This document shows positions 2,423-42,786 of a DNA stretch of 64,000 bases, piece after piece. The number at the start of each line of letters is the position of its first letter. Position 1 is the stretch's first letter. A program made the translations under genes and the position numbers. This stretch comes from Cohnella panacarvi Gsoil 349. Lineage in GTDB: Bacteria; Bacillota; Bacilli; Paenibacillales; Paenibacillaceae. The notes beneath the pieces are model-generated. The model saw only the letters and a list, made by a program, of their open reading frames with translations. It made no database searches and was not told where the DNA came from. The stretch covers positions 711,576 through 775,575 of the forward strand of contig NZ_KI911563.1 of assembly GCF_000515335.1 (NCBI RefSeq). The letters run 5' to 3'.

Positions 2423-2468
2423 CGGTTGAGCAAGCGACACGAAACTCACTATACGGAGGGATTCCAAC

Positions 2469-2954
2469 ATGAATCTTCAACATACGCTCATTCGTAAAGT
2501 ACTTACGGTCAGCCTTGGCGCGGTAATTGGATTTACCGGCATCGCGATTGGACAAGCTCAGCCAGCGGCGGCGGCTACGAAAGCAGACAAAATCGTCAGC
2601 CTGGGCAATAAATATCTCGGAGTCAAGTACCGCTTCGGCTCGCCGTCCGGCAGAACTTCCACTTTCGACTGTTCTAGCTTTACTCAATATATTTACGGCA
2701 AATACGGCATTAAGCTGCCTCGCGTCTCCAGCGACCAGGCTAAAAAAGGTTACCGCGTATCGAAGTCCAATCTGAAAAAAGGCGACCTCGTCTTTTTCTC
2801 TACGAAACGCACGGGCAAGAAAATCGGCCACGTCGGCGTTTATACCGGCAAAGGCAAGATGCTTCACACGTACGGAGCGCCTGGCGTCACCTATTCGAGC
2901 ATCAACTCCAGCTACTGGAAGGCTCACTACGTTACCGCCCGTCGCGTACTTTAA
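2469..2954 (+). CDS. Secreted NlpC/P60 cysteine endopeptidase
   Basis: A 161-residue exported protein. Residues 1-36 form a signal peptide (basic start, hydrophobic core, cleavage probably after AAAA). The rest is one NlpC/P60 domain with catalytic Cys in STFDCSSFTQY and His in KIGHVGVYTGKG, followed by a second His in MLHTYG. The family cleaves gamma-D-Glu-meso-DAP or similar bonds in peptidoglycan. There is no SH3 or LysM wall-binding domain, so this is a minimal form. The ATG sits 9 bp after TACGGAGGGA. It is monocistronic: a terminator follows. Confidence 0.9.
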   Translation: MNLQHTLIRKVLTVSLGAVIGFTGIAIGQAQPAAAATKADKIVSLGNKYLGVKYRFGSPSGRTSTFDCSSFTQYIYGKYGIKLPRVSSDQAKKGYRVSKSNLKKGDLVFFSTKRTGKKIGHVGVYTGKGKMLHTYGAPGVTYSSINSSYWKAHYVTARRVL

Positions 2955-2984
2955 TAACGTCTAGTCTGCGCGCAATGTTGCACG

Positions 2985-3026
2985 AAAAAACCGGCAAATT
3001 CGGGAAATCCGAAATGCCGGTTTTTG
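2985..3026. terminator. Bidirectional terminator between NlpC/P60 and histidine kinase genes
   Basis: The arms AAAAACCGGCA and TGCCGGTTTTT enclose an inner TTCGGG/TCCGAA pairing, with A and T tracts on both sides. It can end the plus-strand peptidase transcript and the minus-strand kinase transcript. Confidence 0.85.
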
Positions 3027-3045
3027 TTTGCGTTCTATGTTGTTG

Positions 3046-4395
3046 TCACCGGTTGCGGGGCAACTGGATCGAGATCGTCGTTCCGTTGCCCGGCTTGCTG
3101 TACACGTCGACTTTGCCCTCGTGCATATCGATGATCTTCTTCGCGATGGACAAACCGAGACCGCTGCCGCCCGTCGTGCGTCGGCGCGCGTCGTCCACGC
3201 GGTAGAAACGCTCGAACAAGTAAGGAATTTCGTACTCGGGAACGCCGATCCCGTAATCCGTCACTTCGATCTTGACGGAGGATTTCGCCGCTCGTACGCG
3301 GACGTCGATCGGTTCCTTGCTGTATTTGATCGCATTGTCGATCAGAATGAGAAGCAACTGGCGGATTTTATCCTTGTCCCCGCGCATCTTGACGTTGCCG
3401 TCCGAATGAACGCGGATTTCCCGTTGGAACGTCGTGCCGAGCGTCTCGGACAGCTCGCGGATAACGCCGTACACGTCGAATCTGTCCATCTTGAGCCAAG
3501 CGTCCTGCTCCGCTTCGGCGAGCGTCAGCATCGACCGGATAAGGTTCTGCAGCCGCTGCGTTTCCTTCGAGATCGCTTCGATCGCCTCGTCGCGCACCTC
3601 GGCGTTGTCTCTGCCCCAACGCTTCAGCATATCCGCATAGCTGGAAATGACCGTCAGCGGCGTCTTGAGCTCGTGGGAAGCGTCGGCCACGAAGTGCTTC
3701 TGATGCTCGATCGTTCGATCCAGCCGTTCGATCATTTGGTTGAACGCACGAACGAGCTGCTGAAGCTCGACGGATTCTTCCCTTCCGCTTAGCTTCACGA
3801 CCTGCAGCTTGCCGCTTCGGTCGATTTCCCGCATCGTCTGCACCATCTGACCGATCGGCCCCGTTAATCGCGACGTGAACCATAGCGTACCGAATATCGC
3901 GAACACGACCGCTCCGATGCTCGTTACGCTTAGCGCGCCGACAAGAATTTGCAAATAGCTGTCCAGCACCGTAAGTCTGCGGGCCGCCTCGATCGTCCCG
4001 ATGAAATGTCCTTGATCGAATAGCGGAACGGTCAAATAAATAATCCGTTGTCCATTGATCTGGCGCGTTTCGGACATCATGGACGAGCTGGCGATCGCAG
4101 GTTGCGAAAGCAGTTCTCTATCGCCGATCTGATTGACGACTTGTCCGTCCGCCGTTACGATCCGCATCATCTCGTTCGCGTTATACAGATCGATAAGCAC
4201 CTTCGGATCATCCAGCCCGCGCATGTTCTTCTGGCGAATCGAATCCAGGACGAGGTCCGTCTTATTCGTCATGAGAGCAAGTTCGCCGCGCGTCGTAACG
4301 CGAATGACGAAGAAATAAACGAAGATGTTGTACAGAATCAGGATGAAGATTAACCAGAAAACGGTGAATAGCGTAAACCGCGACCGCAGTGTCAT
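3046..4395 (-). CDS. Sensor histidine kinase (ArlS/CssS-like)
   Basis: A 449-residue membrane kinase. Transmembrane segments lie at about 8-31 and 151-174 with an extracytoplasmic domain of about 120 residues between them. HAMP follows (175-228), then HisKA with H241 in DASHELKTPL, then the ATPase with N box DNAIKYS, G1 DYGIGVP and G2 GGSGLGLS. Its start overlaps the stop of the response regulator gene by 4 bp (ATGA), so the pair is translationally coupled. A chromate-transporter gene lies just upstream in the same direction, so the signal could be a metal-oxyanion or envelope stress; that is inference. Confidence 0.93.
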   Translation of the reverse strand: MTLRSRFTLFTVFWLIFILILYNIFVYFFVIRVTTRGELALMTNKTDLVLDSIRQKNMRGLDDPKVLIDLYNANEMMRIVTADGQVVNQIGDRELLSQPAIASSSMMSETRQINGQRIIYLTVPLFDQGHFIGTIEAARRLTVLDSYLQILVGALSVTSIGAVVFAIFGTLWFTSRLTGPIGQMVQTMREIDRSGKLQVVKLSGREESVELQQLVRAFNQMIERLDRTIEHQKHFVADASHELKTPLTVISSYADMLKRWGRDNAEVRDEAIEAISKETQRLQNLIRSMLTLAEAEQDAWLKMDRFDVYGVIRELSETLGTTFQREIRVHSDGNVKMRGDKDKIRQLLLILIDNAIKYSKEPIDVRVRAAKSSVKIEVTDYGIGVPEYEIPYLFERFYRVDDARRRTTGGSGLGLSIAKKIIDMHEGKVDVYSKPGNGTTISIQLPRNR

Positions 4396-5090
4396 GCATC
4401 CGGCTCCTTCAGCATGTAGCCTACGCCGCGCACCGTGTGCAGCAGCTTATGGCGGTATCCTTTGTCCATCTTCTGGCGCAAGTAACGGATATAGACGTCC
4501 ACGACGTTCGTATCCCCGATATATTCATAACCCCACACGTCCGATAAAATCTCGTCTCTCGTCTTTTCCGTGTTTTTATGACGCGCCAAGTAAAGGAGCA
4601 GCTCGAATTCCCTCGGGGTCAGATCGATGGAAACGTCTTTGCGGTACACTTTGCGCGTTAGCAGCTCGATAGTCAAATCGCCGATTTTGATGACGTCCTC
4701 GTTCTCCCCTTCGCGGGAAGCCTGGAAAATACGCAGCAGGTTTCTGACGCGGGCGAGCAGCTCTTCCATCGCGAAAGGCTTAGTAATATAATCGTTCGCT
4801 CCATGTTCGAATCCGCTTACTTTGTCCGGAACCGTGTCCCTTGCCGTCAGCAGGATCACGGGCACCGCGCGGTCGTTCTGTCGCAGACGGCGCAGAACCT
4901 CGATTCCGTTGAGCTCGGGAAGCATGACGTCGAGCAGAATGAGGCTCCATTCGCCGCTGACGGCCATCTCGAGACCGGTGCGGCCGTCGGCAGCGCGCCC
5001 GACGGTATAGCTTTCATGCTCCAGTTCCAGTTGCAATATTCTCGCGATCGAATCCTCGTCTTCAATGATTAATATTTTCTCGTTGTTCAT
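4392..5090 (-). CDS. OmpR-family response regulator
   Basis: A 232-residue two-domain regulator. The receiver has acidic residues EDED at 10-13, the phosphoacceptor D54 in LLDVMLP and the lysine in YITKPF. The C-terminal winged helix (about 130-228) ends in HTVRGVGYMLKEP, as in the ArlR/OmpR group. It starts 12 bp after the chrA stop and overlaps the kinase by 4 bp. It is the partner of the kinase at 3046-4395. The palindrome upstream of chrA (6354-6373) is one candidate target. Confidence 0.93.
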   Translation of the reverse strand: MNNEKILIIEDEDSIARILQLELEHESYTVGRAADGRTGLEMAVSGEWSLILLDVMLPELNGIEVLRRLRQNDRAVPVILLTARDTVPDKVSGFEHGANDYITKPFAMEELLARVRNLLRIFQASREGENEDVIKIGDLTIELLTRKVYRKDVSIDLTPREFELLLYLARHKNTEKTRDEILSDVWGYEYIGDTNVVDVYIRYLRQKMDKGYRHKLLHTVRGVGYMLKEPDA

Positions 5091-5102
5091 CTTGCGTTCA
5101 CC

Positions 5103-6293
5103 TCACGAATATACGATCCAGCCGCAGACGGCTGCTAGCAGAACGATTAACCACGGCGGGCAACGCCAGCTCGAAAGCATGACGAAACCGATGATGACGA
5201 ACGTAAAGTCCGTTGCGCCCTCAACCGTGCTTGTAAATACGGGCGTGTACAGTGCGGCAAGCAACACGCCGACGACCGCCGCATTAACACCCGCGACGAC
5301 TGCCCGCGTACGGCGATGCGCGCGAAGCTTGGACCAGAACGGCAATACGCCCGCGACAAGAAGAAAGGACGGCAAAAAAATGAATAAGAGCATGACGACC
5401 GCGCGGAGAACGCCTTCGCCTCCAGGCGCGGATACGGCCCCAATATAAGCCGCGAACGTGAACAAAGGGCCTGGCACCGCTTGCGCGGCGCCGTAACCGG
5501 CCAGAAACTGCTGCTCGTTCAAGATGCCTTGCGGAACCGTCTCTTCGTGCAACATCGGCAGAACGACGTGTCCGCCGCCGAAGACGAGCGATCCGGTACG
5601 GTAACCGATATCCGCGAGCTGCGCCATCATACTAGGATGCCATGAAGCCAGAACAGGCAAAGCACCGAGTAGGACGATGAATAGAAGCAAGCATATAACC
5701 GCAGGCGTCGGCCTCATGCCGCTATCCGGCGAATGATGCTCGTCCGCTAAAGGTTGAGGTTGGATGAAATAAGCCCCGACGACCCCGCAAAGCAGCAGCG
5801 GCACGATCTGTCCGAGCGCGCCCGGCCACGTTAATGCGATAACGGCGGTAAGGGCGGCCATCGAGATTCGGGTTCGGTCAGGCGTTAGCGTGCGTCCCAT
5901 GCTCCATACCGCCTGCGCGACGACGGCCACGGCCGCCAGCTTCAGACCGTGAAGCCATCCGGCATCGGCGAAGTCGTTGTTGTTCATGGAAAGGGCGAAT
6001 AGGATCAACAATAGCGCCGAAGGGATCGTAAAGCCCAGCCATGCGGCGACCCCGCCAAGCAGGCCTGCCCGTCTAATTCCGACGGCAATCCCTAGCTGAC
6101 TGCTGGCCGGTCCGGGAAGAAACTGGCATAACGCCGTCAATTCCGCGAATGACTCGTTGGAAAGCCAGCCTTTGCGGTCAACGAACTCGCGCCGGAAATA
6201 TCCGATATGCGCGACGGGGCCGCCGAACGAAGTCAACCCGAGCTTCAGCGCGGTTAACCCCGCTTCGAGCGGACGATAGAGGCTCCCAGCCAT
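5103..6293 (-). CDS. chrA: Chromate transporter, two-domain (ChrA)
   Basis: A 396-residue inner-membrane protein with two CHR domains. The N-terminal repeat has SFGGPVAHIGYFRREFV and LPGPASSQLG; the C-terminal repeat has FGGGHVVLPML and AVPGPLFTFAAYIGA. The paired motifs mark the long-chain CHR family, which exports chromate or sulfate-like oxyanions. The ATG at 6293 follows GGGAG and is preferred over a TTG 36 bp upstream. It is the first gene of an apparent chrA-regulator-kinase operon, an arrangement I do not know as standard for chrA. Confidence 0.9.
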   Translation of the reverse strand: MAGSLYRPLEAGLTALKLGLTSFGGPVAHIGYFRREFVDRKGWLSNESFAELTALCQFLPGPASSQLGIAVGIRRAGLLGGVAAWLGFTIPSALLLILFALSMNNNDFADAGWLHGLKLAAVAVVAQAVWSMGRTLTPDRTRISMAALTAVIALTWPGALGQIVPLLLCGVVGAYFIQPQPLADEHHSPDSGMRPTPAVICLLLFIVLLGALPVLASWHPSMMAQLADIGYRTGSLVFGGGHVVLPMLHEETVPQGILNEQQFLAGYGAAQAVPGPLFTFAAYIGAVSAPGGEGVLRAVVMLLFIFLPSFLLVAGVLPFWSKLRAHRRTRAVVAGVNAAVVGVLLAALYTPVFTSTVEGATDFTFVIIGFVMLSSWRCPPWLIVLLAAVCGWIVYS

Positions 6294-6429: not shown

Positions 6430-8043
6430 TTAGCCGATCGACTTCACTAACGCGACCAATAGCCTCTTGAGCGATGCGTCAAGAGGTTGAGCGATGCTCC
6501 GATCTTCGGACAAACCCTGTCCTCTCCATAGCGCAGCAAGCATGGCTCCGCTGTCTACTTGCGGTACCAACGCGGCCGGCATCGCGGGGAACAGCTCCAA
6601 CCAAGCTTTACGCCCTGGGAAAGACTGATCGCGGTTGGCGATCCAATCGAATGCGACCTGCCGCCTTCCTTCCTTGCCCCCTGCGGCCTGCAACGAGATG
6701 CATGCTTGCTGCCTGAGCCTCGTCCATTTCGTCGGGAGGCAGTCCGCTACCATCCAGATACGGTCAGCCGTATCGCGCAGCCAATCTTGCGTCTTGGCGT
6801 CCGTCCATCGGCTGGACACGTCGAGCAGCACGATCGGCACGCCAAGTTTGCGAAGCCACTGAGAGAATGCGGAACCCGGCTCTTGTCCGGCACTCTGGTT
6901 GCTCGGATCGATCGGATAATAAGCAGCCGATCCCTCCCGCCAGGCTGGCGCCGATGGTTGTATGCCGGACGCGTCCGCGAAGACGGCAACTTTCGGCATG
7001 CGCTTCTCCCCGTCGAGCAACGTATAAAGCTCCGCATCTTCGATGATGCCGGGGCATTCGACTAGCGCATGAGATAATCCGGCGCGATTCAAAGCCGCCG
7101 ATGCGGCATGAGCGGTGAAAGTCGCCCCGCCGCCGGGGTAAGCCGACGCGACCGCGACGACGATGACGCTTTCCTCGCCTTGCGAAAGTTCGCTATTGCC
7201 GGGATAGGGCGTCTCCGCAGGTCGGTAATCCTTACCGACCTGCGGCCCGATGATCATTAATTCTTCTCGAAGCTGTCCCGCCGATTGAGGCCGCTTATTC
7301 AGATCCGAAGACAGCAACCGTTCCAACTGGACGATGAACGTTCCCGGCACGTCTCCCTGCAACGCCGAGCGCATGCTTCCGCTATGCCGCATGGCGAAGC
7401 GGCCGCCGGACAACAGGAAATAAGCTAACGCCCCCAACGCGTACAGATCGGTCCGCGAGTCGGACTGCTCGCCCCGAAGCTGCTCGGGCGCCGCGAAACC
7501 CGGCGTGCCGAGCTGCAACGTATCGGATGTCTCGCCGGGACGAAACCGCCGGGCGATGCCGAAGTCAACGAGCACCGCTTGATCGTTCCGATCGATCAGC
7601 ACGTTGGACGGCTTCAAGTCCCGGAAGACGATCGGCGGAGACTGAGCATGCAAATAAGCAAGCACGTCGCATAGCTGTATGAGGTATTTCAGCACGAGTC
7701 GGAAGGGCAGCCTCAAGCCGAAGCGTTCGAACCGTTCGGCCAGCGTATCTCCGGCGATATAGTCCATAACGATGCAAGCAAGCCCGTCCGCATCCGGCGG
7801 ATAATAATCGACGATGGCCGGCAGATGCGGATGCGACAAGCCGCACATGAGCCTCGCCTCCGACACGAACGCATCCCTTTCCTCCGGAAGCGGTTTCGTC
7901 AGCTTAAGCGCGACTTGCTTCCCGTTCAGCCGCATATCCTCGGCAAGATAGACTCTCCCCATGCCGCCTTTGCCGATCTGCATCCCGACGCGGTACCGAC
8001 CCGCGAATAACTCCCCCGTTCCAAGCAATCCGACCGATTCCAT
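6430..8043 (-). CDS. Ser/Thr protein kinase with degenerate P-loop C-terminal domain
   Basis: A 537-residue soluble protein. The N-terminal Hanks kinase (about 17-280) has the glycine loop IGKGGMG, K47 in VALKL, the catalytic loop FRDLKPSN with D142, and DFG with D160. No transmembrane segment or PASTA repeat is present, unlike PrkC. From about residue 300 a second domain begins VIVVAVASAYPGGGATFTA, which reads like a ParA/MinD-type P loop that has lost the Walker lysines. The ATG at 8043 follows GGGGAGG by 9 bp; 37 codons of open frame upstream overlap the terminator at 8083-8140 and are rejected. It is probably monocistronic. Substrates are unknown. Confidence 0.85.
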   Translation of the reverse strand: MESVGLLGTGELFAGRYRVGMQIGKGGMGRVYLAEDMRLNGKQVALKLTKPLPEERDAFVSEARLMCGLSHPHLPAIVDYYPPDADGLACIVMDYIAGDTLAERFERFGLRLPFRLVLKYLIQLCDVLAYLHAQSPPIVFRDLKPSNVLIDRNDQAVLVDFGIARRFRPGETSDTLQLGTPGFAAPEQLRGEQSDSRTDLYALGALAYFLLSGGRFAMRHSGSMRSALQGDVPGTFIVQLERLLSSDLNKRPQSAGQLREELMIIGPQVGKDYRPAETPYPGNSELSQGEESVIVVAVASAYPGGGATFTAHAASAALNRAGLSHALVECPGIIEDAELYTLLDGEKRMPKVAVFADASGIQPSAPAWREGSAAYYPIDPSNQSAGQEPGSAFSQWLRKLGVPIVLLDVSSRWTDAKTQDWLRDTADRIWMVADCLPTKWTRLRQQACISLQAAGGKEGRRQVAFDWIANRDQSFPGRKAWLELFPAMPAALVPQVDSGAMLAALWRGQGLSEDRSIAQPLDASLKRLLVALVKSIG

Positions 8044-8082: not shown

Positions 8083-8140
8083 CAAAAAATCCCGCACGTC
8101 AAGCGTAACGCCTATTTCTAGGCACGCTTCGGTGCGGGAT
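8083..8140 (-). terminator. Terminator of the repair operon
   Basis: On the minus strand a GC-rich stem (ATCCCGCAC paired with GTGCGGGAT, inner GCCTA/TAGGC arms) is followed by TTTTTTG. It ends the transcript of the methyltransferase at 8164-9189 and the genes before it. Confidence 0.85.
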
Positions 8141-8163
8141 GCTTTCCCGTTCAACTTATGCGA

Positions 8164-9189
8164 TTACGGCTTCCGCCTTACCCACATTGTAACCTCTTCG
8201 CGGTTGTGGAACAACTGCTTGACCTTGCGAATTTCGAAATGCTCCGAATACGCCTCGGTCAAGTCCTGGATGCTTTGGAACGGCTTGCGGTACATGAGCT
8301 TCAGCGTGATAATGCCCGAGCCGCCGGCGGAGAGCGCGGACGATAAGCCCGACACGATCCGGCACGTATGATACGGATCCCAGCTCATGTCGCAGACGAG
8401 CAAATCGAACGTTCCCGGCGCGAAATTCAGCTCTGCGGCATTCTTCCGAATATGTCTCAGTCTCGGATGGAGCGCGAGCGACTCGTCCATCTCGGCCGGG
8501 TCGACCGCCGTCACCTTCATGCCCCGCTCGAGCAGCACAGACGTCCAACCTCCGGGCGCCGCTCCGAGATCCAGCGCATTCGTGAACCGGGCAAGCGGCA
8601 ACCCGAATGCCTTCTCCGCCTCCAGCAGCTTAAACGCCGCGCGAGAGATCAGCGCTTCGTCCCGGCGGAAACGCACCGCTCCCCCCGGCCAATCCGACAA
8701 ATTGTCTTTTGGCGTCGAGCAGCCCGCATACAGCCTCTTGCGCGAAGAATAGACGGAGACGATCCAATCCGATTCCCGAGCGACGACTTCGCCCCCTAGC
8801 TCGCGAACGACTTCCGCCATGACGTCCCTAGCTTCCGCGGAGCCGAAAGGAAACGGGCTGTCTTGCGCCTTCCTGACTTGTATGGCGACCTTCTTGCCGC
8901 GTACTCGCTCAGCTAGCTGCGCCGCATAATCCCGCAGTACGGCAGCCGTCAACTCCTCGTCGCCGCTGACATCCGTCTCGGCTTCGACGGGGAACAGATG
9001 CCGCAGGAACACCGGCTCGTCTCTGCGAAACTCTTTCAATAATTGCTCCGGCTCATAATCTCCGGACGTGAAGCTGAACGTCTCTCCCGCCGCGATGCCC
9101 GACACTTTCGTCCCGCGCACCCGGCGGCGAAGCTCTTCCATCGCATAGGGAGCAAACCCCGGATTCGCCGTTCCGATATACGTATTCAA
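8164..9189 (-). CDS. SAM-dependent RNA methyltransferase (RlmM/FtsJ-like)
   Basis: A 341-residue protein. The C-terminal half has the SAM motif LDLGAAPGGWTSVLL and a K-D-K-E pattern like RrmJ: SRAAFKL, VCDMSWDP, ITLKLM and EVTMWV. The N-terminal part (1-150) resembles the THUMP-like region of RlmM. A 2'-O-methyltransferase acting on 23S rRNA or another RNA is likely; the site is unknown. The start is TTG at 9189 behind AGAGGA, because the first ATG would remove 16 conserved residues and the longer frame upstream lies inside the ABC gene. It begins 2 bp after the ABC stop. Confidence 0.75.
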   Translation of the reverse strand: MNTYIGTANPGFAPYAMEELRRRVRGTKVSGIAAGETFSFTSGDYEPEQLLKEFRRDEPVFLRHLFPVEAETDVSGDEELTAAVLRDYAAQLAERVRGKKVAIQVRKAQDSPFPFGSAEARDVMAEVVRELGGEVVARESDWIVSVYSSRKRLYAGCSTPKDNLSDWPGGAVRFRRDEALISRAAFKLLEAEKAFGLPLARFTNALDLGAAPGGWTSVLLERGMKVTAVDPAEMDESLALHPRLRHIRKNAAELNFAPGTFDLLVCDMSWDPYHTCRIVSGLSSALSAGGSGIITLKLMYRKPFQSIQDLTEAYSEHFEIRKVKQLFHNREEVTMWVRRKP

Positions 9190-9191
9190 TG

Positions 9192-9968
9192 TTATTCCTC
9201 TTCCTTCCCGACTTGAATCCAAGGCCGCTCGCGGCGCCACGTCACGGTTAACGGAACGTCGTAGGCAGCTTCCAGCCATTCTGCCGTCAGCACATCCCGC
9301 TTCGGTCCCGATGCGATGATCTTTCCTTCCGCCATCAGCGCCACGTGCGTAAATACGGGTATAATTTCCTCGATATGATGGGTCACGTATAGCATCGACA
9401 TTCGGCTCGTCGTCAACCTCGTCAGCGCGTCCAGAAACTTTTCCCGCTCGAACAGGTCCAGTCCCGCGCAAGGCTCGTCCAAGATCAGAAGCTCCGGATT
9501 CGCCATCATCGTGCGAGCGAGCAACACCTTCTTGCGTTCGCCTTGGGACAGCGTGCCGAAAGATTGCTCCGCCATGTGCCTTAGCCCGACTTTACCGAGC
9601 TCGCCCATGGCGCGTTCGCGAACTTCGTCCGGTACGTCCACGTAAATCCGCAGAAAAGCATAAGCGCCGCCCGCGACGATCTCCCATACGGGATCCCGAA
9701 GCGTGAACTTCTCCATGAGCGAAGGACCGATATAGCCGATTTGCTTGCGGATTTCGCGGACATCGACCGTTCCGTAACGATGCCCGAGCACGTCTACCGT
9801 TCCCGATGTCGGAAAAAGGTAGGCGTTGATCATTTCGAGCACGGTCGTTTTCCCGCAACCGTTACGTCCGAGCAACGTCCAATGCTCGCCGGGCTTCACG
9901 CTCAAATCCACGCCCCTCAATATTTCCCGGTCGCCCCTCCGCAACGTAAGATTTCGTAATTCTATCAT
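9192..9968 (-). CDS. ABC transporter ATP-binding protein (YlmA-like)
   Basis: A 258-residue stand-alone ATPase. Walker A is GRNGCGKTT, the signature is LSQGERKK, Walker B is LLILDEPCAGLD, and the switch His is in VTHHIEEI. The VTHHIEEI/FTHVALM pattern resembles Bacillus YlmA and the ModF group. No permease is encoded nearby, so it may work with distant partners or have a non-transport role. It overlaps the upstream thioredoxin-like gene by 4 bp. Confidence 0.85.
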   Translation of the reverse strand: MIELRNLTLRRGDREILRGVDLSVKPGEHWTLLGRNGCGKTTVLEMINAYLFPTSGTVDVLGHRYGTVDVREIRKQIGYIGPSLMEKFTLRDPVWEIVAGGAYAFLRIYVDVPDEVRERAMGELGKVGLRHMAEQSFGTLSQGERKKVLLARTMMANPELLILDEPCAGLDLFEREKFLDALTRLTTSRMSMLYVTHHIEEIIPVFTHVALMAEGKIIASGPKRDVLTAEWLEAAYDVPLTVTWRRERPWIQVGKEEE

Positions 9969-10294
9969 AACAACGTTTCCCCTCTATACGCTTGATCCAG
10001 ACTGTCCACGATGTCCGTAACGGATGGAAAGCGGTACTGCTTCGCCCATCCGCCGTCTTTGCCCTTCACGAGCAGACAGGGCACGCTTTCGATGCGGAAG
10101 GTTTGGGCGATGCCCGGCATCGCGTTCAAATTCGCCGCATACAGCCGAAAATCCGGTCTAATCTGCTCTACGACCGCAAGCATCCGCTTCGCAAGGGCGC
10201 ACGTTCCGCAAAGCGGCGTATGCACGAAAACCGCAAGCGGGCCCGGCTCGTCCGTCCAAGCCCGCTCCCAATCGCCGTTCTCCCATTCAAGCAT
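9965..10294 (-). CDS. Thioredoxin-like protein with CGTC motif
   Basis: A 109-residue cytoplasmic thioredoxin-fold protein. The redox motif is TPLCGTCALAKRM, and the cis-proline region is IESVPCLLV. The CGTC pair differs from the CGPC of classical thioredoxin and resembles Bacillus YtpP/YusE-type proteins. ATG at 10294 (after GGGAG) is preferred over a TTG at 10327. It overlaps both neighbours by a few bases, which shows tight coupling in the operon. Confidence 0.8.
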   Translation of the reverse strand: MLEWENGDWERAWTDEPGPLAVFVHTPLCGTCALAKRMLAVVEQIRPDFRLYAANLNAMPGIAQTFRIESVPCLLVKGKDGGWAKQYRFPSVTDIVDSLDQAYRGETLL

Positions 10295-10637
10295 CCCGCT
10301 TCGCTCCCGATAAAGCCGCTCGTTCAAGCACGGCTTGCGGCATCGGACCGTCGTGAATGACGACGCCGGGCGGATTCGCGTCTCGCAGCGCGCAAACCAT
10401 CTGCGCTCTTCCCATTAAGCTGGAGGAATGCACGTATACCTCGCGCGGGTAGAAGCCGCCCGCGATCATGCCTTGCACGACGGATAAGCCGTTAGGCTGA
10501 TTGTACCCAAGTTCGAAATCGAGCGAAAGAACGTCGACTTCGCAATCCGACAGGAGCAACAAGCATTCTTCGGCCGATCTGGCAGCGACGAATCCGCGCG
10601 GACAAGGTCTTACGTCGTCCAAATACACGTTAATCAT
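10287..10637 (-). CDS. cREC-like (cyclic-phosphate processing receiver) protein
   Basis: A 116-residue single-domain protein. It has the receiver-like core INVYLDDVRPCP, VDVLSLDFELGYN and VYVHSSSLMGR. This matches the degenerate CheY-like cREC family, which is predicted, not proven, to process cyclic-phosphate compounds. There is no output domain. The ATG at 10637 follows AGGAGGA. It overlaps endonuclease IV by 8 bp and the thioredoxin-like gene by 8 bp, so it belongs to the repair operon. The family call is from memory of motifs. Confidence 0.65.
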   Translation of the reverse strand: MINVYLDDVRPCPRGFVAARSAEECLLLLSDCEVDVLSLDFELGYNQPNGLSVVQGMIAGGFYPREVYVHSSSLMGRAQMVCALRDANPPGVVIHDGPMPQAVLERAALSGAKRDA

Positions 10638-11475
10638 CCGTCTCTTCCTCCTTCGACAGACGCCGTACAAGCCCGATTTGCTCCCGGTGAGTTCTCCCTT
10701 CGCTTGTAGGCGTTTCCATAAATAACGGCACTTTCCTGATTTCGGGCGTGGCTAGCAGTTCCTTAAACCCGGTCTCGCCAATGTATCCGGCTCCGATCGG
10801 AGCATGGCGGTCTTTGCGCGAGCCCTGCGGATAGAGCGAATCGTTCAAATGAACGGCGCGCAAACTATCCCACATGCGCAGCTCCCTAGCGCGTTCGACG
10901 AACGCTTGCCAGCCGTCCGCTTTCCATACGCCGCTGGCGAACAGGTGACAAGTATCGAGGCAGAATCCGACTTTCTCCGGTTCCATGCATAACGAGCGAA
11001 TTTGCACCCATTCTTCGGGCGTAGTTCCCATCGGACCGTGATCGCCGGCTTGGTTTTCCAATAAAATCAGCGCCTTCCCTTGCCAGGCGGACGCGACTTT
11101 ATCGATCCACTCTATTATATTTCGGTACCCCTCAAGCGGCTCCTTCCCTTTGTGAACGCCGAAATGAACGACGACGCCAATCGAACCGCAAGCTTCCGCG
11201 ATGGCCAGATCGTTCAGCGTGCACGCGACCATGCGCTCGCTTGCTTCGCCGGTTGCCGCCGGATTTACGGGATAAGGGCCATGGGCGATCGAGACGATTC
11301 CGCGCTCCCGGCAGTAACGTCTGCAACGTTCCGCGTCCTGCGCGGAGTAAGCTTTCGGCGCAAGCATGCGGGGATTTTTGGGAAAATACTGAAACGCGTC
11401 CGCGCCTAGCGCCGCTGCGCTTTCCGCCGCCTGAGCGTAACTGCCGCGCGTGCTCACATGGCTCCCGATGCGCAT
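10630..11475 (-). CDS. nfo: Deoxyribonuclease IV (AP endonuclease, Nfo family)
   Basis: A 281-residue TIM-barrel AP endonuclease. It nicks DNA 5' of abasic sites during base-excision repair using three metal ions. Family motifs are visible: VVHFGVHKGKE, GFCLDTCHLFASG and VHLNDSLYPQGSRKDRH followed by IGAGYIG. The start at 11475 (MRIGSHVS) matches the usual family N-terminus; a longer start at 11499 would overlap the upstream glycosylase stop. It follows the Fpg/Nei glycosylase by 5 bp, so glycosylase and AP endonuclease are made together. Confidence 0.93.
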   Translation of the reverse strand: MRIGSHVSTRGSYAQAAESAAALGADAFQYFPKNPRMLAPKAYSAQDAERCRRYCRERGIVSIAHGPYPVNPAATGEASERMVACTLNDLAIAEACGSIGVVVHFGVHKGKEPLEGYRNIIEWIDKVASAWQGKALILLENQAGDHGPMGTTPEEWVQIRSLCMEPEKVGFCLDTCHLFASGVWKADGWQAFVERARELRMWDSLRAVHLNDSLYPQGSRKDRHAPIGAGYIGETGFKELLATPEIRKVPLFMETPTSEGRTHREQIGLVRRLSKEEETDD

Positions 11476-11480
11476 AGCGT

Positions 11481-12299
11481 CTAAGCCGTTCCTTGGCATT
11501 GCGGGCAGTAGAACATTTTACGGCTTGACAACGTTTCATGCTGAATCTCATGTCCGCATACGATGCATGGTTCTCCTCCCCGATCGTAGACGAGGCAGCG
11601 CGAGTTATACCCGCCCGTGACGTTGTCGTTCTCGGTCAGAGGATGTTCCATGTATCCGCCCGCTTCCTTCGCTTCGATCAGCACCTTACGCATGGCGGCA
11701 TACAGCCTTTCGATTGCGGCGGCATCAAGATCCGGCACCGATCTAGCCGGGTGCAGCTTGGCTTCGAAGCAAATTTCGTCGCTGTAGCAGTTGCCGATGC
11801 CGGCAATGAACTTCTGGTCGGTCAAGGCCGTCTTCAGTCGGCCCCGCTTGCCCGAGAACAGCTTGCGGAACGCTTCAAGCGTCAATCGCTGATCGAACGG
11901 CTCGGGTCCGAGCTGCTTCATCTGTTCGAGTGCCGACTTGGCCGATACAAGGTGCAAATAGCCCAGACGCAATCCTCCGAAATACAAGCTGTTGCCGTCG
12001 AATAGCCGAATGATGACTTGAAAGCGGCTGTCTTCTTTCTTCGCTTCCGTTCCGTAGTACAACCAACCGCCAAGCATCAGATGAAGCAATAGCCGGTTGC
12101 CGTCGTCGAGGTGGAATAGCAGGTGCTTGCCTCTTCGTTCCACGAATAGGATCGTTCGGTTCGCGAGCGCGTTCGCGAAAGCTTCCGGCGGCTCGTTAAT
12201 CGATCCTTCGCGATTGACGACGACACCCGTAATTCTTTTCCCGCCGAGAAGCGATGATAGCTGCGTGCGATAATGCTCCATTTCCGGCCATTCCGGCAT
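11481..12299 (-). CDS. Fpg/Nei-family DNA glycosylase
   Basis: A 272-residue formamidopyrimidine-DNA-glycosylase homologue. The N-terminal MPEWPEME keeps the catalytic Pro2 and Glu3. A lysine is present in RRGKHLLFHL, the H2TH region reads KFIAGIGNCYSDEICFEA, and a C-terminal zinc finger CIVCG...CPQC is intact. The N-terminus differs from the canonical MutM MPELPEVE, so this is probably a paralogue of mutM rather than the one next to polA. It removes oxidised bases. The ribosome site GGAGGAAG is strong, and 88 bp separate it from the HAD gene. Confidence 0.85.
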   Translation of the reverse strand: MPEWPEMEHYRTQLSSLLGGKRITGVVVNREGSINEPPEAFANALANRTILFVERRGKHLLFHLDDGNRLLLHLMLGGWLYYGTEAKKEDSRFQVIIRLFDGNSLYFGGLRLGYLHLVSAKSALEQMKQLGPEPFDQRLTLEAFRKLFSGKRGRLKTALTDQKFIAGIGNCYSDEICFEAKLHPARSVPDLDAAAIERLYAAMRKVLIEAKEAGGYMEHPLTENDNVTGGYNSRCLVYDRGGEPCIVCGHEIQHETLSSRKMFYCPQCQGTA

Positions 12300-12387
12300 A
12301 GTTGCTTCTTCCTCCTCGATACAATCGAATCTTCGTCGGGCTCGAACGATCTCACCCTGTGTAAGGCTGCCGGGCGTTCATGCCCTG

Positions 12388-13233
12388 CTAGCTTGCGCTG
12401 ATCCCGTCGATCAGCTGTTCCAAATCGTCTAGATTGCCGCATACGGCATGCGGACTAGCGCCCGCCGATTCGCATTCCCGTTGCCAGCTGTCCGCGCTGC
12501 AATACCCCGTCAGCACGAGTATTGACGGGCATCCCGCGTTGTTGCCCGCAGCGATGTCCGTGTGCGGATTATCGCCGATCACCCAAGTGCGCTCGGACGA
12601 CGTGCCGGCGAGCTCTAGCGCGTAATCCATTAAGATGGAAGAAGGCTTCCCGATCACGACCGGCTTTATGCCTGTCGCCGCCTCGAGAGCGGCCCCGATC
12701 GTACCCGCACCGGGGAGGAAGCTTCCTTCCATCGGCAGCAGCCGATCCGGATTCGTCTGCACGAACGACGCCCCGGCGAGCAGATGGTTAATGCCTAGGC
12801 GCAATCGTTCGTACGTCAGATTCCGATCCAGTCCTTGAACGACGATCTCCGCGTTCGCCTTGTCGTCTCGATCCTGTAAGATGCGCATGCCGGCTTCCCG
12901 AAGCGCTTCATGCAGTCCGCGCTCCCCGATGACGAATGTATCGGCATTCGGATAACGATTCTTTACATAATAGGCTGCAGCCATGGCGGACGTGACGACG
13001 CGGCCCTTGTCCGCGTCGATGCCGAGATGCCTTAGATGTTCCGCGACCTCCTCCGGCGTGCGCGTCGAATTGTTCGTAACGAACCAGCATGGCAATCGCA
13101 AGCGAGCCAGCTTCTCGATCAGCCTGTCGGCGCCCTCGATTCGTTCGCTGCCGCGGTACAGCGTACCGTCTAAATCGAATAAGAAGGCATCCGGCTTCAA
13201 TAGCTGCCTCGCAGCTTCAATAGTAGGTTTCAA
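12388..13233 (-). CDS. HAD-IIA family sugar phosphatase (NagD/YutF-like)
   Basis: A 281-residue HAD phosphatase. Motif I is FLFDLDGTLYRG, motif II is VTNNSTRT, and motifs III and IV are GKPSSILM and VIGDNPHTDIAAG. The order with a cap between motifs II and III marks subfamily IIA (NagD, AraL, YutF), which acts on sugar or nucleotide phosphates. The start is TTG at 13233 behind GGGAGGAG, 28 bp after the mrfB stop. Its place among repair genes could mean house-cleaning of damaged metabolites; that is inference. Confidence 0.85.
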   Translation of the reverse strand: MKPTIEAARQLLKPDAFLFDLDGTLYRGSERIEGADRLIEKLARLRLPCWFVTNNSTRTPEEVAEHLRHLGIDADKGRVVTSAMAAAYYVKNRYPNADTFVIGERGLHEALREAGMRILQDRDDKANAEIVVQGLDRNLTYERLRLGINHLLAGASFVQTNPDRLLPMEGSFLPGAGTIGAALEAATGIKPVVIGKPSSILMDYALELAGTSSERTWVIGDNPHTDIAAGNNAGCPSILVLTGYCSADSWQRECESAGASPHAVCGNLDDLEQLIDGISAS

Positions 13234-13261
13234 TCTTGTTGATTCTCCTCCCGATCCGCCG

Positions 13262-14617
13262 TTATCCGCGTTCCGCAGCTCGGCCGATTCTCGCTTCCAA
13301 TCGCTCGATTCGGCGTTGCAGCTTCTCTCTGTCGTCGCTTAGCGAGGCGTTCGCGCGATTCATGCGGGCGCGGCGACCGAGCATCGCCAGCGCGCGCTTG
13401 GCGTAATCCAATGCCAGGCCTAAATCCTTCGTCCGATGCTCGTGGTGCATCGCCAGCTCGACGAAAGCGTCCGTCTTCGGCAACAGGCCGTACTCCGTGC
13501 ATGCGACGGCAGCTTCCCACAGGGGCACCGCACGATCCATTCGTCCCAGCTTTTTGTATCTGGTCGCCAGCGCCAGACACCAGGCTCGCTCGCCCGCATC
13601 CGGCCGATCGGCCAGACGGGCGAAGAGCCGCTCCGCGTGCTCCTCCTGCCCGTGCTTCTCCAGCCAGCTCGCCGTGCAGTATAGCTCTTCGCCGTCCTCG
13701 TCGTCAAGCGGCTCCGTGCCCGGTCGATCCTCAAGCAGTTGCGCGAAGTGCACCGCCAGGGCGGCGAGCGTCAGCACGTCCTTCTCGTTATGCGTATAAA
13801 CCCCGTGAAGATGCTCGGGATTCCCGTCATTCAGAAATTGAACGTACAGGGCCGGAGCCAACGATCCGGGCACGTCCTCGCCCCTGACGAATCCAAGCCT
13901 GGCCTCCTCGACCGTCGCCAGCCTGCAGGAGGCTAACGTCTTGCGCCACAGCGCTCGGGAAGGATGCAGAAAATCGAGATGCCCCGGCTCCGCCCCGCTC
14001 GTGCGCCAGCCGTTCATAATATACCGGCTCACGATCACGGGCCAGTCGAACGTCCTGCCGTTATAAGTAACGAGATGCTCTTTGTCCTTCAAGTGCGTCA
14101 GCAAATATTCCAGCATGGCACGCTCTTCGCCGGGATGCCGGATCAGCGTCTGTTCGACGATGAAAGCTTGGTCCGCATAATAACCGAAACCGATCATGAA
14201 CGGTACGTTGCCTGCCCCGACGCCGAGCCCGGTCGTTTCCGTATCCAAGAAGAGCAGCCTGCTTACGTCTACCGGCGCCGTCGCCCTCGTCTGGTTCTGC
14301 CTAGCGGCGACCGGTGCCAACCAGCCCGCGCTGCGCTGCAGTTCCTCGAGTCCATACCGGCCATGGCTATAAGGCAAAGGATAAGCAAGCCTGCGCAGCA
14401 GGAAGCTCCCGCCGTCGTTCTCGATTTCCTCGACTCCGATCGCTCGAAAAGCCGGATGCAGCTTGCTAGCGGTTCTCCCGGCCTGTTCCGCGCAACTCGG
14501 CGACGCGGCTTCCGTCTCAGCCTTAACCTCGGCATCCGCCGTCTGGGCGGCTTCAGCCGCCTCCGAAGCCTGAGCCGCCGCGCGAAGGCGCTCCAGCCGC
14601 TCCCTCAGCCCGCTCAT
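13262..14617 (-). CDS. mrfB: RNase H-like exonuclease MrfB (YprB)
   Basis: A 451-residue protein. The N-terminal part is Ala/Glu-rich and probably disordered. A DEDD-type exonuclease domain (about 120-310) shows LFLDTETTG, LVTYNGRTFDWPV and HNEKDVLTL. TPR-like helices follow (about 325-425). In Bacillus subtilis YprB works with the helicase YprA in repair of mitomycin C damage. The ATG at 14617 overlaps the mrfA stop by 4 bp; a longer frame from 14698 lies inside mrfA and is rejected. Confidence 0.88.
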   Translation of the reverse strand: MSGLRERLERLRAAAQASEAAEAAQTADAEVKAETEAASPSCAEQAGRTASKLHPAFRAIGVEEIENDGGSFLLRRLAYPLPYSHGRYGLEELQRSAGWLAPVAARQNQTRATAPVDVSRLLFLDTETTGLGVGAGNVPFMIGFGYYADQAFIVEQTLIRHPGEERAMLEYLLTHLKDKEHLVTYNGRTFDWPVIVSRYIMNGWRTSGAEPGHLDFLHPSRALWRKTLASCRLATVEEARLGFVRGEDVPGSLAPALYVQFLNDGNPEHLHGVYTHNEKDVLTLAALAVHFAQLLEDRPGTEPLDDEDGEELYCTASWLEKHGQEEHAERLFARLADRPDAGERAWCLALATRYKKLGRMDRAVPLWEAAVACTEYGLLPKTDAFVELAMHHEHRTKDLGLALDYAKRALAMLGRRARMNRANASLSDDREKLQRRIERLEARIGRAAERG

Positions 14618-16899
14618 GCTTCCGCCCTCGCGCCTCGCAATAACGACAGCGCTTGCGTTTTGCCGAGCAACCCGACTTCTTCGATCGGTCCGACGCACGC
14701 CGGACAGCCGCTCAAACAGCCGCAGCCGACGATGAGCCGCTCCGCTTCCTCCAGCAATTCGTCGTGCATCTCGTACAGTCTTTGACTAAGCCCGATCCCG
14801 CCCGGATAACGGTCGTAGAAGTAGATCGTCGGCCGCTTCGTATGCGTCGCCTTGACCTGCGGCACGACGCGAATATCGAACGGGTCGCACATCAGATGCA
14901 ACGGCGCGAGGTGAATTAGCACGTTCGCGAGACCGAGCAGCGCCATCTGCATGTCGTTCGCGCTGCGTTTCGCCGACTCCTCCTCGGAGAACGAGAACCA
15001 ATAACCGCTCGTATGCAGAATCTCCTCCGGAAGATGAATCGGTCCCGAGCCGATGTTCTCGTGGGTGCGCAGCCGGATTTTCTTGAAAATCGTCGGCTTC
15101 GCCATCACCGTAACTTCCCCGAAATGCCGTTCCAACGGTCCCGACTTCGTCTCGAGATCGACGTGCAGCACTTTCAGCTCGACCGCGAGGCTTGCGTCCG
15201 TGAAATAATCGACGTTTACTTGGCGAACATAAGCCTTCTTCTCGGGATAGTCCAGCTTTTCGACTTGGTATTGCACGCCCTCATGCAAGTAGATCGCTTC
15301 TTCGTGCACGAGCGTCGGCGCGCTGAACCGATCGACTTCGCCGATGACTTTATGCCCCTCGGTCATATCGATAATGACGATGTTCTCCTGCGCCGCCGTC
15401 CGAAGCGAGATGTTGTGCGCGGGGAAAGCCTGTTCCATCCAATACCAGCGATTGCCGACATGGTGAAGCACCTTCTCTTCGACGAGAAATTCGAGCAGAT
15501 CGGTCAGCTTCTCGCCCCCGAACGAATCGCCTTCTTCAAAAGGAAGCTCGTATGCCGCGCACTTGATATGATCGAGCAGAATGAGCAGATTATCGGGATG
15601 AATGCGCGCTTCCTCCGGCGGACGGCCGAGGAAATAATCGGGATTCTGGATTAAATATTGATCGAGCGGATTGCTGCTCGCCACCAGGAACGTGACCGAG
15701 CTGCCTTGACGGCGCCCGGCGCGGCCCGACTGCTGCCACGTGCTCGCGATCGAACCTGGGTAGCCGTTCAGCACGCAAGCCTGCAACTGACCGATGTCGA
15801 TGCCGAGCTCTAACGCGTTCGTGCTGACGACGCCGCGGATTTCCCCGCTTCGCAGCCCTTTCTCGATCTCTCTTCGCAGCTTGGGCAAATATCCGCCGCG
15901 ATATCCGCGGATCGATTTCTTGCCGAGCTCGCCTTTAATCAGTTCCTGCAAATACGTCAGCAGAATTTCGACCCGCACGCGGCTTCGCGCGAATACGATC
16001 GTCTGGATGCCGCTCTTGAGCAAGAGCGCGGCCAGCTTCTGCGATTCGAGCACGCTGCTGCGGCGGATGCCGAGCTGCTGATTGACGACGGGAGGGTTGT
16101 AGAACACCATGTGCTTCTCCCCCGTCGGGGCGCCGTTGTCGTCGATAAGCGCGACCGAAGCGCCAAGCAAACGCTCCGCATGCTCGCGAGGATTGCGGAT
16201 GGTGGCCGAGGCGCATAGAAACTGCGGATTGCTGCCGTAGAACTTGCAAATCCGTTGCAGACGGCGAATGACGTTGGCGACATGGCTGCCGAACACGCCG
16301 CGATAAGCATGCAGCTCGTCTATAATAATGTACCTAATATTCTCGAACAGCTTAACCCACTTCGTATGGTGAGGCAGGATCGCCGAATGCAGCATATCGG
16401 GGTTCGTCACGACGATGTGGCCGGCGTTGCGAATCGCCGTCCGCACGGTCGGCGGCGTATCCCCGTCATAGGTGTGCGTCTTGATGTCGACCTCCATCAG
16501 ATCGGCGAGCTGCTGAAGCTCGGCTACCTGATCCTGCGCCAGCGCCTTCGTCGGAAATAGATATAGCGCCCGCGCGCTGTCGTCGTGAAGCAGCGTCTGC
16601 AGCACGGGCAAATTGTAGCAGAGCGTCTTGCCCGATGCCGTCGGCGTAACGGCGACGACGTGGCGGCCTTCCGCGACCGCTTGATAGGACGCGGCTTGAT
16701 GGGTGTACAGCTCGGATATGCCTTTGCTCCGCAGCGCTTCGGCCAGCTTAGGATGTATATTAGGCGGCAACGGCACCGTTCGCGCAGGGCGCGCCGGCTG
16801 CGTATGCCAATACGTGACGTTCTCCATCAGCTCGGGCTTGCTTCGCAGCAGGCCGAGCCATTCTTCCACCGACTCCGCTCGTTCCGTCAACGGATTCAT
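14614..16899 (-). CDS. mrfA: DEAD/DEAH-box DNA helicase MrfA (YprA)
   Basis: A 761-residue superfamily 2 helicase. Motif I is TPTASGKTLCY, motif II is IIIDELHAYRG, motif VI is QQSGRAGRRQG. A C-terminal domain carries the four-cysteine cluster CGCLSGCPAC (near 735) typical of the YprA/Hrq1 group. The Bacillus homologue, with YprB, acts in an excision pathway for mitomycin C adducts. The ATG at 16899 follows AAGGAG. It heads a run of nine same-strand genes. The promoter at 16929-16957 carries a LexA-like site. Confidence 0.93.
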   Translation of the reverse strand: MNPLTERAESVEEWLGLLRSKPELMENVTYWHTQPARPARTVPLPPNIHPKLAEALRSKGISELYTHQAASYQAVAEGRHVVAVTPTASGKTLCYNLPVLQTLLHDDSARALYLFPTKALAQDQVAELQQLADLMEVDIKTHTYDGDTPPTVRTAIRNAGHIVVTNPDMLHSAILPHHTKWVKLFENIRYIIIDELHAYRGVFGSHVANVIRRLQRICKFYGSNPQFLCASATIRNPREHAERLLGASVALIDDNGAPTGEKHMVFYNPPVVNQQLGIRRSSVLESQKLAALLLKSGIQTIVFARSRVRVEILLTYLQELIKGELGKKSIRGYRGGYLPKLRREIEKGLRSGEIRGVVSTNALELGIDIGQLQACVLNGYPGSIASTWQQSGRAGRRQGSSVTFLVASSNPLDQYLIQNPDYFLGRPPEEARIHPDNLLILLDHIKCAAYELPFEEGDSFGGEKLTDLLEFLVEEKVLHHVGNRWYWMEQAFPAHNISLRTAAQENIVIIDMTEGHKVIGEVDRFSAPTLVHEEAIYLHEGVQYQVEKLDYPEKKAYVRQVNVDYFTDASLAVELKVLHVDLETKSGPLERHFGEVTVMAKPTIFKKIRLRTHENIGSGPIHLPEEILHTSGYWFSFSEEESAKRSANDMQMALLGLANVLIHLAPLHLMCDPFDIRVVPQVKATHTKRPTIYFYDRYPGGIGLSQRLYEMHDELLEEAERLIVGCGCLSGCPACVGPIEEVGLLGKTQALSLLRGARAEA

Positions 16900-16928
16900 G
16901 GCATTGCTCCTTGCGATCGTTTCCTTCT

Positions 16929-16957
16929 ATTGTACAGAATATATGTTCGCCCAGCAA
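16929..16957 (-). promoter_or_regulatory. mrfA promoter with LexA-like box in the spacer
   Basis: On the minus strand TTGCTG (16957-16952), a 17-bp spacer and TACAAT (16934-16929) form a SigA-type promoter. The spacer holds CGAACATATATTCTG (16949-16935), which differs from the Firmicute LexA core GAAC-N4-GTTC by one base. In lexA the site CGAACTCGAGTTCTG holds the same position relative to its promoter. Confidence 0.6.
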
Positions 16958-17168: not shown

Positions 17169-17387
17169 ATGGCCAAACCGGACGATCGTTCCGACAACGT
17201 AAACAAGCTGCAAGAAGCTAGAGAAAATACGATGGAAAACATCAGCCAGACGGAGCATTACTTGGACGAGCACGCGGTTGAGCTCGGCGATACGGAAAAG
17301 CAGCAGCTGGAGGGCAAGAACGCCCGCCGCCGTCAAGCCGTTCAAGGCATGCAAGAGGAAATCCTAGACGAGAAAAATCAATATTAA
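17169..17387 (+). CDS. tlp: Small acid-soluble spore protein Tlp
   Basis: A 72-residue, highly charged helical protein without cysteine. It begins MAKPDDRSDNVNKLQEA, which is the hallmark of the Tlp (thioredoxin-like, in name only) spore protein family. Tlp is made in the forespore and degraded at germination. The ATG follows AAAGGAGAGC. It is monocistronic, lies in the opposite direction to both neighbours, and a terminator follows within 10 bp. In 16958-17168 I see no convincing SigG promoter. Confidence 0.92.
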   Translation: MAKPDDRSDNVNKLQEARENTMENISQTEHYLDEHAVELGDTEKQQLEGKNARRRQAVQGMQEEILDEKNQY

Positions 17388-23999: not shown

Positions 24000-24012
24000 G
24001 AACGCTCACCCC

Positions 24013-24114
24013 AAACATTTGTTCTGATATGAGAATAACACGAACATATGTGCCTGTCAACAGATTTTGGAACATTTGTTCGGTAGAACGAATGTTTGTG
24101 CGAACTCGAGTTCT
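24013..24114. promoter_or_regulatory. LexA operator cluster between yneA and lexA
   Basis: Five sites resemble CGAAC-N4-GTTCG: AAACATTTGTTC (24013-24024), CGAACATATGTGCC (24041-24054), GGAACATTTGTTCG (24069-24082), CGAATGTTTGTGCG (24089-24102) and CGAACTCGAGTTCT (24101-24114). The third and fifth keep both GAAC and GTTC halves. The second lies in the yneA promoter spacer and the fifth in the lexA promoter spacer, which fits repression of both genes. Confidence 0.88.
24032..24060 (-). promoter_or_regulatory. Promoter of yneA
   Basis: On the minus strand TTGACA (24060-24055), a 17-bp spacer and TATTCT (24037-24032). A LexA box fills the spacer. Confidence 0.75.
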
Positions 24115-42773: not shown

Positions 42774-42786
42774 GGATATTCGCTTT

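Follow-up and report, generated by a model that had tools for sequence, protein, structure and literature searches.

Why would a bacterium place the genes for a DNA repair helicase and for an rRNA-type methyltransferase at the two ends of one gene run? The question is raised by Cohnella panacarvi Gsoil 349, in a 64,000-nucleotide stretch of contig NZ_KI911563.1 (positions 711,576 to 775,575 of the forward strand; hereafter the window). Nine open reading frames follow one another there on the minus strand, from 16899 to 8164: mrfA, mrfB, a HAD phosphatase gene (HAD), fpg, nfo, cREC, a thioredoxin-like gene (trx), an ABC ATPase gene (abc), and a methyltransferase gene (mtase). The original prediction, made from the sequence letters, took them for a DNA damage repair operon and proposed that the overlapping genes serve one response, perhaps by handling RNA ends. 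We regard it as moderately probable that the run is an SOS-controlled, translationally coupled genome maintenance operon of Cohnella and part of Paenibacillus, put together from two older units, mrfAB and the seven genes from HAD to mtase (the tail). Gene content, gene order, the conservation of a LexA-like box, the independent occurrence of the tail, a natural fusion of cREC with mtase, and the conserved catalytic residues were observed directly. The box, the two-unit make-up, and the fusion are new here; no description of this operon was found in the open-access literature that was searched.

Gene content and order of the run

All nine open reading frames are on the minus strand as predicted, and the recomputed spacings from mrfA to mtase (−4, 28, 88, 5, −8, −8, −4, and 2 bp) are identical to those given before. 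The single strong terminator that had been proposed was also recovered at 8083..8140 (minus strand), with a hairpin of −35.3 kcal/mol (z, −4.80) and a T-run at about 8089-8083. The family assignments were upheld by Pfam and NCBIfam, and a PDB sequence search with seven of the nine proteins, the Trx-like and ABC proteins being left out, matched six. The prediction had counted three proven repair families and four proteins of no known repair role; there are four such families (MrfA, MrfB, Fpg, and Nfo) and therefore five genes without a proven repair role. An Rfam search of window positions 4000-26000 returned nothing reaching gathering scores.

Internal promoters or terminators had been named as features that would split the run. 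A simple scan placed none at the junctions: terminator-like sites numbered 6 against 12.9 expected and promoter-like sites 3 against 4.3 expected, all within coding sequence. This silence is weak evidence, since the same scan also failed to pick up the strong terminator and the promoter of mrfA.

The order of the nine genes, which the prediction had proposed to compare among relatives, is kept in all 36 other Cohnella genomes examined and in parts in other families of the order. It is also kept in the 29 Cohnella loci of a named set, defined as the best 80 of 379 methyltransferase relatives (29 Cohnella and 51 Paenibacillus and allies) and, being picked by the methyltransferase, leaning to near relatives. 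Two Cohnella loci (L041 and L056) carry 1.1 and 4.6 kb of extra DNA between mrfB and HAD. In the assembly of two Cohnella rhizosphaerae loci (L058 and L175), mrfA is in pieces in different frames, as are nfo and abc in L058, which may reflect a real break or a sequencing error. With start codons picked by script, an overlap of 4 or 8 bp joins cREC and trx in 32 of the 36 genomes, and 4-bp overlaps join trx and abc in 20 and abc and mtase in 15.

Among the 80 named loci, the run starts with mrfA-mrfB in 76, including 47 of the 51 Paenibacillus-type loci, and with HAD in 4. Detection counts are 80 for fpg, 79 for cREC, 78 for HAD, 59 for nfo, 53 for abc, and 31 for trx. Minus-strand matches and ABC or HAD matches below 38% identity were ignored, so a gene that was not detected may be a diverged one. 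Farther away, 19 loci from other families of the order, searched by tblastn with Cohnella queries, combine mrfAB with parts of the block (nfo in 16, abc in 16, cREC in 11, mtase in 8, and HAD and trx in 1 each) or have mrfAB alone (3 loci). In three loci of one family (f9), 3.5 to 5.7 kb lie between mrfAB and nfo-cREC-abc. The three genes nfo-cREC-abc remain adjacent in several other families despite different following genes. This adjacency, the overlaps, and the cREC-mtase fusion are better evidence than the order within the family.

A LexA-like box before mrfA

A LexA-like (SOS) box, CGAACATATATTCT, is located at 16936..16949 on the minus strand, 36 bp before the mrfA start codon. It sits between a −35-like TTGCTG (16957-16952) and a −10-like TACAAT (16934-16929) with 17-bp spacing, promoter-like elements that were assigned by eye (16929..16957, minus strand) and that a stricter promoter scan did not pick. 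The LexA operator is given as CGAAC-N4-GTTCG in the available text of PMC4551915, and the box agrees with CGAACATATGTTCG at 12 of 14 bases, its right half reading ATTCT for GTTCG. Both deviations occur singly among the Staphylococcus aureus SOS boxes listed in the accessible part of PMC11442139, at recA (CGAACAAATATTCG) and sbcDC (CGAACAAATGTTCT).

The box is conserved in relatives. Matches to mrfA were found in 57 genomes, from which 55 loci and the window were used and one partial copy of 34% identity (G043) was omitted. The strict form of the box precedes mrfA in 48 of these 56 loci, and [CA]GAACN4RTTCK, which allows A as the first base, is found near the mrfA start in 54 of 56 and in 65 of 76 named loci; random windows from the same named loci contained it in 84 of 14,195 cases. 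In many relatives a TACAAT- or TAAAAT-like element follows the box directly. No box was found in the named loci before HAD (0/74), fpg (0/76), or mtase (0/76), nor before the HAD-headed runs (0/17 loci).

The window holds a reference for comparison in three LexA-like boxes (24012..24082) between lexA (24161-24784, plus strand) and yneA (23583-23999, minus strand). Other boxes of the genome stand before genes that by eye are recA, mutS, and dinB, the last with two boxes. Collectively, a site within a promoter, its elements placed by eye, and conserved in front of mrfA makes SOS control of the head of the run very probable.

Several observations stand beside this result. Box CGAACGGATATTCG at 42769-42782 (G000:C1:754344-754357) lies just upstream of the gene read by eye as mutS and suggests that mismatch repair is under SOS control here. 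At G000:C1:2188807, two LexA-like boxes separate a dinB-like polymerase gene from a divergent gene whose protein starts with MCGRYTI (SRAP/YedK-like by eye). Six Cohnella loci (L076, L077, L078, L081, L082, and L083) carry a variant mrfA of 60 to 62% identity beside an ordinary mrfB and otherwise ordinary genes. Four of them (L076, L077, L081, and L082) also have a deviating box upstream (CGAACAGATATTCG or CGAACGGATATTCG, followed by ctaaa). It appears that mrfA, together with its promoter, was replaced in place by a copy from another lineage.

mrfAB and the tail occur apart

The mrfA gene (14614..16899, minus strand) encodes an SF2 helicase with DEAD, Helicase_C, WHD_HRQ1, and MZB domains. 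The SF2 core, the winged-helix domain, and the MZB zinc domain are those of MrfA, and the best PDB match is YprA (6znp, Bacillus subtilis MrfA), with 1,047.7 bits over residues 25-754, near full length. The mrfB gene (13262..14617, minus strand), which overlaps mrfA by 4 bp, encodes a DEDDh 3′-5′ exonuclease whose PDB match is exonuclease MrfB (8un9; E value, 8.3e-44). The DEDDh residues, D107, E109, D172, H258, and D262 in the B. subtilis numbering of PMC11194089 (partial text), are kept in the aligned motifs DTETTG, NGRTFDW, and HNEKDV.

In 200 genomes of the class, searched for mrfA with five candidates scored per genome, all 16 from other genera of the same family had no mrfA match at an E value of 1e-100. 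Thirteen of them (Paenibacillaceae, L098-L110) were examined, and all keep the tail without mrfAB. The seven genes are complete in 10; nfo and abc were undetected in L098, and trx and abc in L099 and L107. In L098, L099, L100, L105, and L108, an RNase Z gene (by eye) stands before the block and a kinase gene follows it, with one gene between in L098. Conversely, in 27 mrfA loci elsewhere in the class, taken from 98 class-level matches besides the genome's own, the roughly 5 kb downstream of mrfA contain no tail gene except for a 25% ABC match. Because each stands without the other, mrfAB and the tail are best described as two units that were joined in this group.

The cREC protein and the methyltransferase

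The cREC gene (10287..10637, minus strand) encodes a divergent receiver domain that scores 86.7 bits against PF20274 (cut-off, 27). Residues D7, D8, D40, H70, and S72 are invariant in 22 sequences. The structure model (pLDDT, 95.8) led Foldseek to receiver domains (best E value, 1.3e-4; TM, 0.57) and thus to no closer relative of known function; searching PDB sequences with the cREC profile gave nothing under an E value of 0.26, and the one PHROGs match is a family of unknown function. The Pfam gathering score, the conserved aspartates, and the receiver fold agree in placing the protein among the cREC domains. These are predicted to process cyclic phosphates, and their genes are elsewhere associated with RNA ligases, according to the available portion of PMC7824862.

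The last gene of the run (8164..9189, minus strand, TTG start) encodes an RlmM-type 2′-O-ribose methyltransferase. It matches PDB entry 4atn at an E value of 3.3e-21 over the catalytic part, residues 147-345, and stays under the RlmM equivalog cut-off (109.6 of 176 bits). K187, D267, K297, and E332 are invariant in nine sequences, and we take these K-D-K-E residues to have a catalytic role. An RlmM-like fold together with these conserved residues identifies the protein as RlmM-type.

In 12 of 40 genomes of the sister genus g21, cREC and the methyltransferase are one protein. The fused frames span 464 to 469 codons without a stop, with 18 bp between the halves in all 12, and the genomes form one clade (support, 100/98). 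Eight more g21 genomes were considered as fusions on equal open-frame lengths of the two halves and were rejected because their DNA has stop codons between the halves. The translated fusion of L099 keeps the cREC aspartates and the K-D-K-E residues, and both domains pass Pfam. The model of the fusion has a mean pLDDT of 90.7, and its first fold match is Escherichia coli RlmM (TM, 0.69 on the target). Further, every one of the 21 named loci without nfo and of the 27 without abc still has cREC; the presence of mtase in them follows from the choice of the set.

A second cREC copy was found in genome G062 (L116), at most 0.7 kb from an RNA ligase gene that is followed by Thg1-type and P-loop (AAA_33) genes; this set (2346-5351, minus strand) is probably an RNA repair cassette in a Paenibacillaceae genome. 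Around six other class-level cREC copies (L111-L115 and L117), the stretch examined contains none of the remaining eight genes, except that L113 and L117 have a 27 to 28% ABC match on the opposite strand. Nine of the 200 class genomes (families f46, f23, and f53) have the methyltransferase but no cREC; none of the six such loci examined contains the block, and three have a 35% fpg match about 4 kb away, in what by eye is the polA-mutM region.

Since relatives have fused the two into one protein, cREC and the methyltransferase probably cooperate, and the fusion together with the paralogue near RNA ligase and Thg1 genes points to RNA as their substrate. We therefore think an RNA role of the pair fairly likely on sequence grounds, and the earlier guess about RNA ends fits with both the fusion to an rRNA-type enzyme and this paralogue.

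Other genes of the run and its surroundings

The fpg gene (11481..12299, minus strand) is a second Fpg/MutM-type DNA glycosylase gene, with Pfam, NCBIfam, and PDB matches. The protein has the N-terminal Pro-Glu, the H2TH motif, and the zinc finger of the family and scores just below the NCBIfam equivalog cut-offs (207.8 of 212 and 197.3 of 203.3 bits); by its sequence, it is an Fpg-type paralogue. The only further match in the genome, the other Fpg copy (G000:C1:4203956), is 37% identical. The nfo gene (10630..11475, minus strand) likewise encodes a second Nfo-type endonuclease IV (TIGR00587, 179.4 bits against a cut-off of 129.65), and one further match in the genome (G000:C1:3927618) is 30% identical.

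The HAD gene (12388..13233, minus strand, TTG start) encodes a HAD-IIA phosphatase (157.6 bits against a family cut-off of 100.15), possibly a 2-phosphoglycolate phosphatase. Endonuclease IV cleans 3′-phosphoglycolate ends, and phosphoglycolate phosphatase removes the product. The trx gene (9965..10294, minus strand) weakly resembles a small thioredoxin-like protein; it scores 18.4 bits against the Pfam Thioredoxin cut-off of 23.5, and its CGTC motif is invariant in five sequences. The abc product (9192..9968, minus strand) is a stand-alone ABC ATPase of the transport type by Pfam and NCBIfam, with no permease among the nine genes.

Past the terminator, a gene at 6430-8034 (minus strand) encodes an N-terminal protein kinase domain followed by a CpaE-type ATPase-like stretch (by eye), and in L099 a CpaB-like gene (by eye) comes after the kinase gene. 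On the opposite strand, the interval between metH and mrfA contains a gene for the small acid-soluble spore protein Tlp (17169-17387, plus strand; TIGR03090, 84.5 bits).

Proposed mechanism and alternative explanations

In the mechanism that we propose, DNA damage would activate RecA and remove LexA from the box, so that the MrfA helicase and the MrfB 3′-5′ exonuclease could open and trim the sites of bulky adducts; mrfAB with its LexA-operated promoter would be the first unit. The tail, as the second, would be transcribed by read-through, which we consider likely in Cohnella. The extra Fpg would excise oxidized bases, the extra Nfo would clear the 3′ blocks that Fpg or radical damage leaves behind, and the HAD protein would most likely destroy the 2-phosphoglycolate, or some comparable small phosphate, that such end cleaning sets free. 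The cREC and RlmM-type proteins may act as a pair on RNA, in the simplest case by opening cyclic phosphate ends and methylating the ribose 2′-O, which would let rRNA or tRNA withstand the same damage. Accessory roles would fall to the ABC ATPase and the Trx-like protein. We infer the binding of LexA, the read-through, and all activities of the HAD, cREC, Trx-like, ABC, and methyltransferase proteins. The more specific idea that cREC and the methyltransferase form a new two-step module for healing or shielding RNA, which would open cyclic phosphate or otherwise damaged ends and methylate the ribose 2′-O, and that Cohnella and part of Paenibacillus have put it under the SOS switch along with mitomycin-type and base excision repair, so that a single LexA promoter answers both DNA and RNA damage, is quite doubtful at present.

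Several findings weigh against this mechanism or limit its reach. The pattern CGAACN4RTTCK is not enriched genome-wide (89 matches; reversed control, 91). It is conservation that carries the case for the box, and the patterns were defined only after the mrfA site had been seen. Of 12 further sites, namely 11 of the 89 matches, eye-picked for an AT-rich center, and the mutS site, 3 precede repair genes read by eye and 9 lie elsewhere, some of them within genes. Two of the 54 box matches (L079 and L080) represent another site of poorer quality; 11 of the 76 named loci gave no box, among them L220, which is cut by the locus end; and 17 of the 27 class-level mrfA loci lack it, against 10 that have it. 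The tail occurs without mrfAB and without the box in 17 loci, so it is not SOS-controlled through the mrfA box there. Of the 80 named loci, 21 gave no match to nfo and 27 none to abc, which suggests that both are dispensable. The flanks are mostly syntenic: 64 of these loci have metH, in many cases truncated at the locus end, and 62 have a kinase gene that begins downstream of the block at a distance of up to about 3.5 kb, so that the order within the family is partly plain synteny. Finally, the HAD protein scores 194.3 of 475 bits on the 2-phosphoglycolate phosphatase model NF053752; it resembles such phosphatases yet falls below the specific model, and its phosphoglycolate step is thus one that we infer.

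Much of this evidence also suits an account in which SOS-controlled mrfAB adjoins an unrelated, constitutive housekeeping tail with its own promoter, kept beside it by descent and outside the damage response; the tail would then comprise base excision repair, RNA modification, and a transport-type ATPase. The boxless tails without mrfAB, 13 in the class-level set (10 with all seven genes) and 4 among the 80 named loci, are in line with it, as are the syntenic flanks, and an mrfB-HAD gap of 71 to 368 bp in 17 of the 36 Cohnella, besides the 1.1- and 4.6-kb gaps in two more, leaves room for a promoter. In the window, however, mrfB and HAD are only 28 bp apart and the simple scan found no terminator-like site between them, and mrfAB heads the tail in 76 of 80 named loci and accompanies tail parts in several other families. 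We judge the account of two unrelated units somewhat unlikely. The same facts bear on the claim that the overlaps indicate one response, of which a part stands: the conserved order, the overlaps recurring in the 36 Cohnella, and the box, which precedes mrfA but none of HAD, fpg, and mtase, favor it, whereas the boxless tails, the syntenic flanks, and the 27 mrfA loci elsewhere without tail genes do not. A single role for all nine genes has only partial support.

Another explanation would assign cREC, Trx, ABC, and the methyltransferase to ribosome maturation or antibiotic tolerance, by RlmM-type rRNA methylation assisted by the ABC protein; soil antibiotics that strike DNA and ribosomes together would explain why these genes joined repair genes. 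The methyltransferase is indeed RlmM-type by profile and by fold, and its fusion with cREC in one clade is compatible with this; its score under the equivalog cut-off and the 27 of 80 named loci in which abc was undetected, all keeping cREC and the methyltransferase (the latter by choice of the set), count against it, and we consider it unlikely. An anti-phage island built around a YprA-family helicase (DISARM- or ARMADA-like) is very improbable. PADLOC models such as BrxH, DruE, and DrmA match the helicase, mad3 and mad8 the ABC protein, and mad2 part of the methyltransferase, but the best PADLOC score of the helicase is 156.2 bits against 1,047.7 for B. subtilis MrfA/YprA, mrfB adjoins it, the other six genes have no PADLOC match at 1e-10, and the locus is fixed between metH and the downstream kinase gene in most named loci.

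If the SOS-controlled operon is real, the mrfAB pathway gains a defined partner set and, in this group, SOS control. The natural fusion, which can be produced and assayed as a single protein, would give the predicted cyclic phosphate enzyme cREC an rRNA-type methyltransferase as its physical partner, and RNA mending within the same alarm as DNA mending would become directly testable. Even if the halves are independent, the box and the tails without mrfAB define which genes to delete together or apart.

Comparison with known systems

The head of the run resembles B. subtilis mrfAB (yprAB), which acts in mitomycin C repair, in its adjacent helicase and DEDDh exonuclease genes in the same order. 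It differs in its company: none of the 27 mrfA loci outside the order has extra repair or RNA genes nearby. The repair branch of the YprA family is described in PMC12458937 as having no conserved context, or MrfB only, and the main text of that paper, as far as available, holds no word beginning with Paenibacill or glycosylase. With the SOS operons of Firmicutes the run shares a LexA-like box between −35- and −10-like elements, of a kind that the same genome has at lexA and yneA, and it departs from them in a box with 12 of 14 consensus bases and ATTCT for GTTCG.

Hen1 2′-O-methylates the 3′ end of RNA. Pnkp1-Rnl-Hen1 RNA repair, as described in the available text of PMC4411300, is comparable by analogy only, in that RNA-end enzymes occur with a ribose methyltransferase. 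The operon is not a member of that system, because no ligase or kinase is found among the nine genes; its methyltransferase, moreover, is of another family. The cREC-RNA ligase systems of PMC7824862 (seen in part of that text) are approached through PF20274 and through the L116 paralogue near ligase and Thg1 genes, whereas the cREC gene of the run stands, without a ligase, between endonuclease IV and the Trx, ABC, and RlmM-type genes. The methyltransferase itself is most like E. coli RlmM, the 23S rRNA C2498 2′-O-methyltransferase, through the NCBIfam model over residues 42-342 and the fold (TM, 0.69). It differs from that enzyme in its sub-equivalog score and in being coupled, or in some relatives fused, to cREC.

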